This document shows positions 9,739 to 13,962 of a stretch of DNA of 64,000 bases, piece after piece; position 1 is the first letter of the stretch; every line of letters starts with the position of its first letter. Where the stretch lies: assembly GCA_938048455.1 (NCBI GenBank), contig CALIUY010000012.1, positions 62,001-126,000 of the forward strand, given 5' to 3'. The notes under the pieces were generated by a model, which was given only the letters and a program-made list of their open reading frames with translations, was not told the origin of the DNA and searched no databases. This stretch comes from an uncultured Desulfobacterales bacterium (lineage in GTDB: Bacteria; Desulfobacterota; Desulfobacteria; Desulfobacterales; SpSt-501). Position numbers and translations under genes: made by a program.

Positions 9739-10688
9739 GGTCGAGTCGGCGGGACACTCCGCGCCCCGGATCCGCTTCCCTCCAGCCAGTCGCCGAGCAT
9801 CCGGCTGTAGCGCTCGGGTTCGCTCAGAAAGGGAAAATGGCCGCCCTGCGGAAAGACGCACACGGCGGCCGCGGGGTAGGCCCGGCGCAGCGCCTCGCGG
9901 AGCGGGGCGTCGACGAGGGGGTCGTTTGCGGACTCGGCCACCAGGCAGGCAATGGCGGCGTGGGCGAGATCGGGGGGAGCGAAGGCCCGGCTCAGGCAGG
10001 AAAGCCGCGCCAGCACGTGCGCCTTGCGGATCGCACCGCAGGTCTGCTCGACGAGGTAGGCCTCCACGAGGGCCGCCCCCGGGCCGGCGGCCGGCGAAAG
10101 CAGGCGCCGGGCGTTACGGCGCATGCCGGCCAGAATCGCCCATTCCGGCACCCACGGGAGCAACCGCCGCCCGCGCCGCGCCAGAGCCGCGATCCGTGAG
10201 TCCGGCGGGAAGCTGTTTCCGAGAACCAAGCTCCGCACGCGCTCGGGGGCACGCGAAGCGAGGAACTGGGCGAGAACCCCGCCCATCGAGCTTCCCACGA
10301 AGTGGGCGCGCGCGATGCCTTCGCCGTCGAGCAGGGCGAGGATCCCGGCACCGAGCGCCTCCCAGCTGCCGAGCGGGGGGTAGCTCGGGGCAAGACAGCG
10401 AAAGCGCCCGCTCAGCGCCTCCATCGGCAGAAACCAGGCGTCCGCGGAAGCCCCCAGTCCGTGAAGGAAAACCAGGGCTTCGTCGCCCGCGCCGACCTCG
10501 GCGAATTCCCAGAGCGTTCCGGAAACGATCCGGTGCTTCAGGTTTCGGCGCCGAAAGGCGGTAAGGCGCGTGGCAACAGTCTCGGGCACCGCCGAGTACA
10601 AAGCGCGGAACGAGGGACGGGGGAGGGGGAAGGCGTAGATCCCCAACAGCATCAGGGCTAAGGCGGCGGCGCAGGCGACGGCGGACAT
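9714..10688 (-). CDS. Alpha/beta hydrolase with N-terminal membrane anchor
   Basis: 324 aa from ATG 10688, chosen because it begins a hydrophobic N-terminal segment (MSAVACAAALALMLLGIYAF) that looks like a signal anchor or signal peptide. The alpha/beta-hydrolase core is clear: oxyanion loop VFLHGLGAS, nucleophile elbow FVGSSMGGVLAQ (Ser), acid near ESANDPLVD and His in FPQGGHFPFLSEPE. The remaining sequence matches the esterase/lipase/haloperoxidase-like branch only broadly, so the substrate cannot be named. It is convergent with uppP, with a 25-nt overlap, and divergent from the large pseudokinase gene. Confidence 0.82.
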   Translation of the reverse strand: MSAVACAAALALMLLGIYAFPLPRPSFRALYSAVPETVATRLTAFRRRNLKHRIVSGTLWEFAEVGAGDEALVFLHGLGASADAWFLPMEALSGRFRCLAPSYPPLGSWEALGAGILALLDGEGIARAHFVGSSMGGVLAQFLASRAPERVRSLVLGNSFPPDSRIAALARRGRRLLPWVPEWAILAGMRRNARRLLSPAAGPGAALVEAYLVEQTCGAIRKAHVLARLSCLSRAFAPPDLAHAAIACLVAESANDPLVDAPLREALRRAYPAAAVCVFPQGGHFPFLSEPERYSRMLGDWLEGSGSGARSVPPTRPQNVPSPQ

Positions 10689-10875: not shown

Positions 10876-13800
10876 ATGAAACGTTGCCCCCGATGCGACC
10901 AGCCCGTCGCCGAGGCGATCGCCGCCTGCCCCGCCTGCGGCCAGGATCTCCGCCCCCGGCGCGAATTCATCGATGACTACCGCATCGTCGATGTGCTGCA
11001 CGAGGGCTACGCGAGCCTGTTGTGCCGTGCGCTTCGCGAACGCACCTCCGAGCCGGTGATGATCCGGCTGTTCACGCCGCAATCCGGCGTGAACGAAGAA
11101 ATCGCCTCCCGGCTGCAGCGCGAGATCGAAAAACTGCAGAGCCTGCCGGCTGCGGGGCTCGTGCGCCACCACGCCATCCGCCGCTCGTCGGACGGACTCT
11201 GGTACCGGATCAGCGAGTGGGTCGACGCCGAAAGCTGGGGCACGCTGCTCGCCTCGGGAAGGCTCCAGGACCTGGGAACGCTTCTCGACCTCTTTGTCCA
11301 GACGGCCGAGACGCTCGCCACCCTCCATGCCCACGGGCACTTCATCCCCCACCTGATTTTGAACGATCTCCTGGCCGTCTCGCTTCCCGACGGCCGCTTG
11401 GAGGTCCGGATCGACTACAAGCTTTCACGCTTCATCGACCCGCGCCTCGACCGCCCCGCGCCCATGCTCCGCCGGCTGCTCGAGCGTCACCCCGACATCC
11501 GGGGCGGCCGGCCGCTCGATTTCCGCAGCGACATCTGGTCGCTTGGCAAGATCTTCGTCGAACTGCTCGCCGGGGATCTCGAGGTCGAAAACCCCGAGGC
11601 GAAGGTCGACGAACTGGAGATGCCCCACGATCTGGCCGTGTTGCTGCGGGTGATGCTGGCCGAAGACCCGGATCTCCGGCCCCAGTCCATGGCCGAGATC
11701 GCCGCCTCCCTGCGACGGATCCGCGAGGGTCTCGGCCGCGTCCCCGTCGCGGCGCCCTCGTCTGTGCCGCGGCGGGGACGCCGTCGCCGGATCGTGGCCG
11801 CCGCGGCGCTTCTGCTGGTTGTCGCGGCTGCAGCCTGGTTCGCTCTGCGCGAGCTCGGGCGCGATACCGAGGCCGTACTCGAAGGATACGCGAATCGCTA
11901 CGCGCGTTCGGTCGGCTTCGTCCTTGTGGATTACTGGATCGAGTCGCAAGGCGAGAGGCTCTTCCGCAACGTCTCCGAGGGGACCGCCTTTCTCGTGGAT
12001 GCTGCGGGCTATCTGCTCACCAGCCGCCACGTGGTCTGCCCCTGGCTCGAAGACCCGCGCTTCGATGCCGTGGTGCGCTACGCCCGCGACCGGGGGATCG
12101 AGATCCGACTGGGGTACCGCCTTTACCTTTGGTTCGAGGGGGAGCGGGCGTTCAACCTCGCCGGCCGCCTGATCGAGAACCCGGATCTGTCGGACATCTA
12201 TTTTCTCGAGAACGCTTACTCGGTCGACGGTCCCCGGCGGATCGAGATCGCCGGAGTCGGCCGCCCGCCGCTGCGCACGCGCCAGCTGCTGCGCTCCCCC
12301 CTAAAGGACGATTTCGCCGTCATCCGCGTCGATCCCCTGCCGCCGGGGCTGCAGCCCCTGCCGCTCGACCCGGAGCTCGATCCCCGAAAGCTTCCCAAGC
12401 TGAAGCGCGTCATCGCCCTGGGCTTTCCGCTGGGCAGCCGCACCCAGGTCGATACCGTGAATGCGAGCGTGGTCCGCGGCAACGTGCGACGAGCCTTCGA
12501 GACCATGTTCCAGATCGACGCCTCGCTCCACGGCGGCAACAGCGGCGGACCGGTCATCGACGAGCACGGTCGGGTCATCGGGATCGTCTCCGCCGTGGCC
12601 GTCGATTTCACCCAAGGGCTCGTTCCCATGGTGACCCCGGTCTGGGACATCGGGCTGATCCTGCCGATCCCGCAGGCCGTACGCTTGCTGCTCGATCTCA
12701 AGGCCGGAGGGGTCAAGTGGAACGGAGTGCCCGATTTCGCCATCGAGGCGAGCGTGGCGGAGATCCGCGGCGCGGCCGAGGCGGGACGCTGGGTCGAGGC
12801 CCGGGCGCTCGCCGACGAAAAACTCGGCCGCAGCCTGCAGCCGGAGCTGGTCGCCGCCTCCGGCGTGCTGCACCTGGCGACCGGAAATTTCCGCGGGGCG
12901 CGCGAGCGTTTCCGGCAGGCGCTTTCGCTCGACCCCGAAGACGACGCGGCGCGCTGGATGCTGGTGCTGCTCGACCGCCTGGCGGGTTGGCGCGAAGCCG
13001 AGGCCGAACGCCGCCGCCTCGAAGGCGCGGATTGGAAGAGCCCGGCCGAGTTCCAGGGCTATCTGGTGCGCGTACTCAAGGGAGGCGAAGACCTGCCGGC
13101 CGCCCTGGAGGGCTGGACGACGGCCGGGGAAAAGGCCTGGCTCTATTTTCTCGCGGGGATTCTCGAGCTCGAGCGCGCTCGCCCCGCGACCGCCGAGGAT
13201 CATCTGGAGACGGCGTTGAAGGCGGTCGAGCTGGAAAGCTGGGAGCGGTTCCTCATTCGGGCCAAGCTCGAAGAGGTGCGCAAACTCCGTCGCCGCGGGT
13301 TCACCGCCGATGCGGAGCGCACCGCCCACCGGCGCCGCACCGAGCGGTTCGAAGAGGAGCTCTCCCGCCTGGAGGCGGAGAAGAAACGACGCCGCCCGGA
13401 GCTTGCCTCGATGCGCGCCCGGCTGGCCTACAGCGGACTGCCGCATGACGAGAAGCGCACCCTCCTTGCCGCGCTCTACGCCGCCGAGCCCGAGAACCGG
13501 CAAGCGCTCGGCGCGCTGGCCTTCGCGGCGGCGGCCGCGGAGGCTTTCGAGGAGGCGCTCACGCACGGCCGCGCTTTTCTGGAAAGCGGAGTGCGCGAAA
13601 ACGCCCTGCGGATGAGCTTGGGGCTGCTGGAGGCGGGGATCCTGCGCCGCCTGGGACGCGAGGAAGAGGCGCGCACCCGGCTTGCCGGCTTTCTGGAACG
13701 CACGCGGGATCCTTTCTTTGATGCCGTGGCCGAGACGTTGCTCGGGCGGAAGCCCGAGGAGGCGCTGCGTGCCCAGGCGGGGGATGTCCCCGAGCAGGTG

Positions 13801-13962
13801 CTCGTCGCCTTTACGGCGGCCGGCTTTTGGGCCGAGGGCGCCGGGGATCGAAAAGCCGCCGGGCGTTTCTACCGCGATGCGATCGGCTCTTTCCTCGACA
13901 CTTGGGTCGAGTACGACTTCGCGCTGGAGCGCATCCGCCGGTTCAGGCGCGCGGAGGATTGA
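10876..13962 (+). CDS. Zinc ribbon - pseudokinase - TM - HtrA-like protease - TPR fusion
   Basis: 1,028 aa; ATG 10876 follows GGGAGG. Residues 3-22 hold a CxxC...CxxC zinc ribbon (CPRCD, CPACG). Residues about 34-290 follow the Ser/Thr kinase fold (alpha-C Glu in EIEKLQSL, DIWSLGKIFVELLAG near 218-232), but the VAIK Lys is Arg64, the HRD region reads HFIPHL with no Asp at the usual place, and DFG is D180-Y-K. This looks like a pseudokinase. A membrane segment spans about 306-324. Residues about 345-600 are a trypsin/HtrA-like protease with an apparent triad: His385 (LTSRHVV), Asp478 or Asp479 (KDDFAVIRVD) and Ser556 (HGGNSGGP). From about 620 to the end are helical TPR-like repeats rich in Ala, Glu and Arg. 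The protease would be outside the inner membrane and the kinase-like part inside, so it may transmit a signal across the membrane. The role is inference. Confidence 0.85.
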   Translation: MKRCPRCDQPVAEAIAACPACGQDLRPRREFIDDYRIVDVLHEGYASLLCRALRERTSEPVMIRLFTPQSGVNEEIASRLQREIEKLQSLPAAGLVRHHAIRRSSDGLWYRISEWVDAESWGTLLASGRLQDLGTLLDLFVQTAETLATLHAHGHFIPHLILNDLLAVSLPDGRLEVRIDYKLSRFIDPRLDRPAPMLRRLLERHPDIRGGRPLDFRSDIWSLGKIFVELLAGDLEVENPEAKVDELEMPHDLAVLLRVMLAEDPDLRPQSMAEIAASLRRIREGLGRVPVAAPSSVPRRGRRRRIVAAAALLLVVAAAAWFALRELGRDTEAVLEGYANRYARSVGFVLVDYWIESQGERLFRNVSEGTAFLVDAAGYLLTSRHVVCPWLEDPRFDAVVRYARDRGIEIRLGYRLYLWFEGERAFNLAGRLIENPDLSDIYFLENAYSVDGPRRIEIAGVGRPPLRTRQLLRSPLKDDFAVIRVDPLPPGLQPLPLDPELDPRKLPKLKRVIALGFPLGSRTQVDTVNASVVRGNVRRAFETMFQIDASLHGGNSGGPVIDEHGRVIGIVSAVAVDFTQGLVPMVTPVWDIGLILPIPQAVRLLLDLKAGGVKWNGVPDFAIEASVAEIRGAAEAGRWVEARALADEKLGRSLQPELVAASGVLHLATGNFRGARERFRQALSLDPEDDAARWMLVLLDRLAGWREAEAERRRLEGADWKSPAEFQGYLVRVLKGGEDLPAALEGWTTAGEKAWLYFLAGILELERARPATAEDHLETALKAVELESWERFLIRAKLEEVRKLRRRGFTADAERTAHRRRTERFEEELSRLEAEKKRRRPELASMRARLAYSGLPHDEKRTLLAALYAAEPENRQALGALAFAAAAAEAFEEALTHGRAFLESGVRENALRMSLGLLEAGILRRLGREEEARTRLAGFLERTRDPFFDAVAETLLGRKPEEALRAQAGDVPEQVLVAFTAAGFWAEGAGDRKAAGRFYRDAIGSFLDTWVEYDFALERIRRFRRAED

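Follow-up and report, generated by a model that had tools for sequence, protein, structure and literature searches.

A conserved chain of Desulfobacterales joins a pseudokinase, a predicted membrane helix, an HtrA-type protease domain and a TPR-like tail

We analysed a stretch of 64,000 nucleotides from an uncultured Desulfobacterales bacterium (assembly GCA_938048455.1, contig CALIUY010000012.1, positions 62,001 to 126,000; hereafter the window). One of its genes, at 10876..13962 on the forward (+) strand, on which all features described below also lie, encodes a protein of 1028 amino acids followed by a stop codon. The gene was delimited by its open reading frame and by full-length relatives; its start is the ATG at 10876, and homologues begin at the same methionine. 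From position 10600 onwards, a simple scan of the strand that carries the gene detected no sigma-70-like site. The encoded chain consists, in this order, of a zinc ribbon, a kinase fold, one membrane helix, an HtrA-type trypsin domain and a tail of tetratricopeptide repeat (TPR) type. Searches of NCBIfam with the window protein returned only remote matches, mostly to HtrA-type, kinase or TPR models and all below their cut-offs.

A search of 58 relatives recovered full-length matches, 44-83% identical, in seven other genomes, as well as two matches cut by contig ends (G005 and G006) and a broken copy (G031). In a sample of 389 genomes from the order, a profile built from ten rows matched 77, the window's own included, and 38 of the 201 better ones, with matches in 15 taxonomic families. 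By hand tally, 59 of the matches covered the whole model, in 57 of the 389 order genomes. Four of 395 genomes matched in a sample of the phylum, the window's own genome being one of the four. Several full-length matches sit in single-contig genomes (G059, G174, G187, G256, G327 and G352), and hence the fusion is no assembly error. Given conservation over the whole length in many genomes, we conclude that this is a conserved family beyond chance.

We aligned 48 members, 45 of them full or nearly full and three partial; 41 of the rows are regions or loci with flanks. We omitted the broken frame of G031, copies split into two frames (G200 and G386), a copy with its front cut at an N run (G154), contig-cut fragments and further full-length members. 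The tree and the entropy and charge counts also omit L095, L096 and L097; in the residue counts of the alignment, L096 is included at Asp479 and Ser556. Fragment row L097 is misaligned at His385 and Cys388 and was set aside, which leaves 45 rows instead of 46 at His385. The most divergent full-length member (L094:8525-11740 (+), genome G325) is about 30% identical and still has arginine for the VAIK lysine and a complete protease triad.

An earlier reading of the DNA letters (the original prediction) had proposed a zinc ribbon, and the N-terminal residues 1-25 (10876..10950) do resemble one: the match to Zn_ribbon_3 is below the cut-off (E 1.4e-4), but the four cysteines, at positions 4, 7, 18 and 21, are present in all 46 covering rows. 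The kinase fold that the same reading had proposed occupies residues 33-288 (10972..11739), as delimited by Pfam and profile matches. On the whole protein, the Pkinase model scores 26.5 bits at residues 40-260, below its cut-off of 31.7; on the isolated domain it scores 32.1 bits, and it matches at E<=0.01 in each of the 32 family members scanned. With a family profile of the kinase, 700 distinct sequences in the PDB matched at E<=1e-3, the best of them ULK3 (2.3e-14, over 3-239 of 259 positions). The presence of a protein kinase fold is thus supported by these profile comparisons.

We placed the kinase motifs by reading the HMMER alignment to ULK3, which agrees with the family alignment. There, Arg64 corresponds to the VAIK lysine, His159 to the HRD aspartate, Asp164 to the catalytic-loop asparagine, and Asp180-Tyr181-Lys182 to DFG, whose aspartate is retained in the window protein, a feature absent from the original prediction. 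Arg64 (11065..11067) is arginine in all 47 rows, and the C-helix glutamate, Glu83 (11122..11124; also placed via ULK3), is retained in 47 of 47. The former catalytic loop, IPHLILND (residues 157-164; 11344..11367), replaces HRDxKxxN; the position of the HRD aspartate is occupied by His in 34 rows, Tyr in 11, Arg in one and Gly in one, never by Asp, and the catalytic-loop asparagine has become aspartate in all 47. DYK (residues 180-182; 11413..11421) replaces DFG, with Lys182 in every row and position 180 being Asp in 36 and Asn in 11; this third motif is DYK or NYK, with DHK and DFK found once each. The glycine loop is lost, and mostly HEG stands there. The VAIK lysine and the HRD aspartate, described earlier as lost from the window protein, are therefore kept by none of the homologues (0 of 47 rows). 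We conclude that, by its motifs, this is a lineage-wide pseudokinase, with the catalytic motifs lost in all aligned rows.

We considered whether an active-kinase ancestor could be recognized among related kinases. Matches to the kinase half at E<=1e-25 (70 of 389 genomes) were this family, its fragments or a G211 fusion described below, and among the matches listed none lay between 4e-43 and the 1e-25 limit. Other kinases close in score (L016 and L018) retain the lysine and the aspartate. The window's own genome has two kinases above the Pfam cut-off, at other places. In L015, an HtrA-like frame and a kinase gene are adjacent, but this kinase retains its motifs.

The HtrA-type trypsin-like domain covers residues 335-615 (11878..12720) according to Pfam and profile matches. 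Trypsin_2 matches at 369-570 over the entire model (5.4e-20), and the best match of the protease profile is HtrA-type (1.2e-16), followed by DegP, DegS, AlgW and relatives. The triad comprises His385 (12028..12030; His in 45 of 45 rows), Asp479 (12310..12312; Asp in 46 of 46) and Ser556, within GNSGGP (12541..12543; Ser in 46 of 46). The histidine and serine are those originally proposed; of the two aspartates offered as candidates, 479 is unchanged throughout, while at 478 only 32 of 46 rows have Asp. With its triad intact, the domain looks like a working protease. Counted from the alignment, His and Asp are 94 residues apart, as compared with 36 in the best HtrA1 match, and a family-specific stretch lies between them in the alignment (residues ~393-470; 12052..12285), with a conserved LWFEG. 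No PDZ domain was detected in the window protein (E<=1) or in five relatives (E<=0.1), and the Do-family model scored 46.4 bits against a cut-off of 416.2.

Across 389 genomes of the class, the protease profile matched 75 genomes, all belonging to the same taxonomic order. Matches at E<=1e-18 lie mostly in open frames of ~1030-1110 residues, and most of the shorter frames are broken or run into a contig end. Two short copies were inspected, one without the kinase (L138) and one cut at an N run (G154). As judged by frame lengths, no other domain partner for the protease was found at E<=1e-18 in the 389 genomes.

The strongest 19-residue hydrophobic stretch of the window protein (hydropathy 2.65), at residues 306-324 (11791..11847), corresponds to the single membrane helix proposed at about this place, and in the 45 rows that span the region the strongest hydrophobic stretch directly follows the kinase. 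Lysine and arginine are more numerous before the helix than after it in 41 of these 45 rows, equal in three and fewer in one. Because positive charge is biased to the kinase side of the helix, the kinase is expected inside and the protease outside. The predicted topology, which agrees with the one originally suggested, places the zinc ribbon and kinase part in the cytoplasm and the protease and tail in the periplasm. The four conserved cysteines of the zinc ribbon would also suit the cytoplasm.

Residues 616-1028 (12721..13959) form a TPR-like helical solenoid, as indicated by Pfam, a structural model and a structure search. Pfam TPR matches are weak and fall after residue 650, and the AlphaFold2 model of the tail is helical: of the 41 blocks of ten residues beyond position 620, 32 have a predicted local distance difference test score (pLDDT) of 65 or more; together they agree with the TPR-like tail seen in the original prediction. 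In the structure search, residues 834-1026 resemble NlpI: the six best rows were two NlpI entries and four NlpI-sized chains of protease-adaptor complexes, three of these four coming from entries titled Prc with NlpI. The NlpI-type rows had Z scores of 15.8-16.5 over 180-192 residues, five of the six over 821-1028; the next structural match was PEX5, at Z 14.7, and helical repeats score high generally. AlphaFold, one of the checks suggested with the original prediction, left the kinase and protease at low confidence and does not speak for or against these folds, mean pLDDT being 48.4 for the full chain and 46.6 for residues 1-299 (three sequences each); only the TPR tail was usable. Because the structure search covered residues 620-1024 of the full-length model, the kinase and protease folds missing from its matches are uninformative; for these two folds we rely on the profile matches.

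We compared conservation along the chain. Mean column entropy is 1.28 bits in the kinase, 1.34 in the protease and 1.98 in the TPR part. The eight canonical kinase positions average 0.31 bits, well under the mean of their domain, and sets of eight kinase columns drawn at random were equally low in 75 of 100000 trials; the eight include the retained Glu83, and the relatedness of rows makes the random-draw number rough. The former active site is thus held rather than drifting. For 12 close pairs, ratios of nonsynonymous to synonymous substitution rates (dN/dS), obtained by simple counting with dS from ~0.1 to over 2, ranged from 0.035 to 0.188 in the kinase, from 0.043 to 0.159 in the protease and from 0.062 to 0.323 in the TPR part. 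The similarity of the kinase and protease values indicates that both halves are under selection, and the dead kinase appears to be kept about as strictly as the protease.

A search for co-occurring partners had been suggested alongside the original prediction. Using simple longest-ORF gene calls, with some loci stopping at contig edges, we compared 41 loci and found no partner gene widely conserved beside the gene across families. All the working parts may therefore be contained in the protein itself. The widest neighbour family occurs in 11 loci, at scattered places. Two convergent neighbours, which in L095 we take to be RarA-like and Der-like, recur in 10 of the 13 f35 loci compared and are confined to family f35. 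A small family recurs on the opposite strand, at position -1 or -2, in three loci from three taxonomic families (L080, L096 and L102). In the window, six of eight neighbours have Pfam names (BacA, hydrolase, RRM, HTH, polymerase/PHP and FMN oxidoreductase) and two have none.

A tree of 44 rows mostly follows taxonomic family, with 18 changes where the least possible is 15 and shuffled labels give 28.8. Families f17, f29, f30 and f35 are split in the tree, and G174 carries two divergent copies from different branches. The split families and the G174 copies fit either transfer or old duplication. Searches of plasmids and phages gave no match at E<=1e-10, and viral contigs gave three short matches, to the protease only.

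Several variant copies were observed. In genome G244, at the usual f35 locus, the frame is naturally truncated after residue 294, so that only the kinase half remains (L095:8187-9071 (+)). An extra copy in genome G124 (L138:3829-6213 (-)) has the helix, protease and TPR tail without the kinase, and a frame that we read as a transposase is close to it. In the single contig of G071, the kinase part and the protease-TPR part occupy two places (L096 and L097) ~0.8 Mb from each other, and L096 contains an N run. Genome G211 has a second pseudokinase copy with a zinc ribbon (L137:1268-3013 (-)), 60% identical to that of the window, in which a different C-terminal module stands in place of the helix, protease and TPR tail; a frame read as a tyrosine recombinase adjoins it. 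This module has no Pfam name and was found in 8 of 146 genomes searched, five of them at E<=1e-20. By our own reading, it follows pentapeptide-like repeats in several chains (among L149-L153 and L157) and a CBS-like part in one.

The domain order, the loss of kinase motifs, the kept triad, the positive-inside helix and the similar constraint on the two halves can be seen in the sequences, and they suggest, tentatively and at somewhat below even chance, a single-pass inner-membrane protease that is controlled from inside. The zinc ribbon and pseudokinase would form a cytoplasmic receptor that no longer transfers phosphate. The former active site, with its mostly fixed replacement residues, would bind a ligand or a protein partner, and binding would alter the pairing or turning of chains across the one helix. 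The altered pairing or turning would switch the periplasmic HtrA-type protease, presumably acting on envelope substrates. Like NlpI with Prc, the TPR tail would hold substrates, but it would do so within the protease's own chain. More specifically, and with a little less assurance, we propose a one-gene inside-out proteolysis switch, with a pseudokinase receptor, a ligand pocket in the kinase site and a TPR substrate adaptor, perhaps moved as a single gene. The inside-out switch of the original prediction is thus plausible, with a precedent in kind in LapD/LapG, while the control of the protease by the kinase half is something we infer.

Several observations weigh against this proposal. Neither AlphaFold2 model gave a confident kinase or protease. 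The charge bias is absent or reversed in four of the 45 rows. Conservation along the chain is lowest in the linker and helix (2.50 bits), which disfavours a finely tuned signal through the helix. The halves can part, as in L095 with only the kinase half and the extra L138 copy without the kinase. Lastly, the TPR fold is widespread, and likeness of fold does not establish function.

The main rival is that the pseudokinase is an anchor and not a switch, a scaffold that binds a cytoplasmic complex and thereby positions an always-active periplasmic protease where the envelope is assembled, with no signal passing through the membrane. We regard this as unlikely, if a serious contender. The fast change of linker and helix fits such a role, as does the single occurrence of the pseudokinase with a different C-terminal part (L137), like a portable module, and EssB/YukC is a cytoplasmic pseudokinase in a membrane protein with scaffolding and recruitment roles (PMC12599244). 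However, conservation in the former active site exceeds the mean of the domain, and a surface that served docking alone would not require this.

A signal might instead run from outside in, with the TPR tail and protease sensing the state of the envelope, and cleavage or a conformational change being reported to a pseudokinase that recruits a response. DegS-type proteases are envelope sensors, and such membrane-anchored proteases are among the profile matches; the kinase-only L095 indicates that the cytoplasmic part can persist alone. Yet the 41 loci hold no widely conserved response gene nearby, and no PDZ-type sensor domain was found in the window protein or five relatives, so that we consider this direction rather improbable. 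It is less probable still that the kinase fold has changed its chemistry, as in SelO or SidJ, and remains a cytoplasmic enzyme to which the protease is linked as a second enzyme. Polar residues are fixed in the old site (Arg64, Glu83, Asp164 and Lys182), and other pseudokinases have acquired new activities (PMC12599244); however, the glycine loop and HRD aspartate are lost and the DFG aspartate is Asn in 11 of 47 rows, making metal-ATP binding by those members doubtful. Finally, it seems very improbable that the protein serves in defence or conflict and has spread as one mobile gene: the patchy spread, the two G174 copies, the mixed family clades, weak matches in PADLOC to models of PD-T4-6, mad6 and RT-protease and the occurrence of trypsin and kinase domains in conflict systems (PMC7159879) would suit this, but PADLOC matches of such strength could arise for any kinase or trypsin, plasmids and phages lack a match and viral contigs have only the short protease ones, most scanned window neighbours have ordinary Pfam names and 10 of 13 f35 loci keep one locus.

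We also compared the chain with known systems. Among proteases, it is most like the HtrA/Do group (DegP, DegS, AlgW and HtrA; MarP), with which it shares a trypsin-type domain, GNSGGP and the aligned His and Asp. DegS has a single N-terminal anchor, and the window protein is like it in this respect. Unlike these proteases, it has no PDZ domain that we could find, ~58 extra residues between His and Asp, a kinase in front and TPR behind. The tail recalls protease adaptors: NlpI, a TPR adaptor, assists Prc in the degradation of MepS, a Prc substrate, and CtpA is activated by its protein partner LbcA. The model of the tail resembles NlpI, an adaptor for an envelope protease; in NlpI-Prc and LbcA-CtpA, however, the adaptor is a separate protein, whereas here it would be fused. 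Prc and CtpA belong to another protease type.

Bacterial pseudokinase families are conserved and their functions largely unknown, as a 2025 review puts it (PMC12599244), from which the following likenesses are taken. EssB/YukC of type VII secretion is, like our protein, a cytoplasmic pseudokinase with all three motifs degraded in a membrane-spanning chain, but it lacks a protease and belongs to a secretion machine; our comparison of 41 loci, which showed no widely conserved neighbour, was not aimed at type VII secretion genes. ActPs3 (MviN) and the GLW pseudokinases also have a membrane region after the kinase, but GLW families have GLW for HRD and Leu or Trp for the lysine, where the present family has Ile/Met-Pro-His/Tyr and Arg. 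DYD pseudokinases share the Arg for Lys; however, they lack the C-helix glutamate, which is kept here as Glu83, and the third residue of the third motif is Lys here. The DLHK and CP1 pseudokinases differ in having no membrane region. The present family's own motifs are VMIR/VTIR, IPH or MPY, and DYK/NYK; no family with these was found in the sections compared, ActPs1 and ActPs2 lying outside them, and the words trypsin, TPR, zinc and Desulf do not occur in the text (PMC12599244).

The order of domains matches no described system, as the original prediction had supposed, in so far as no bacterial chain of kinase or pseudokinase with a trypsin-type protease was among the literature matches listed, a set with subscription papers and preprints outside it. 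In the portions available, a 2005 survey of kinase architectures does not contain the word 'trypsin', nor a 2008 survey of prokaryotic serine proteases the word 'kinase'. The 2005 survey does describe a Mycobacterium avium chain in which a kinase, a membrane segment and a second enzyme are likewise combined, but it is listed as a kinase, the second enzyme is a peptidyl-prolyl isomerase rather than a protease, and among the surveyed mycobacteria it occurs in M. avium only.

A precedent for the proposed control is LapD/LapG, in which degenerate cytoplasmic enzyme domains control a periplasmic protease across the membrane. There, two proteins are involved, the domains are of the cyclic di-GMP (c-di-GMP) type and LapD sequesters LapG, whereas here a kinase fold and a serine protease are in one chain; in the window protein, Pfam detected no GGDEF-EAL or HAMP domain (E<=1), and the likeness is one of kind only. 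Because the dead kinase is tied in one chain to an enzyme of measurable output, its role can be tested through protease activity. If our reading is true, this family would provide, beside LapD/LapG, a further and c-di-GMP-independent way to control envelope proteolysis from the cytoplasm.

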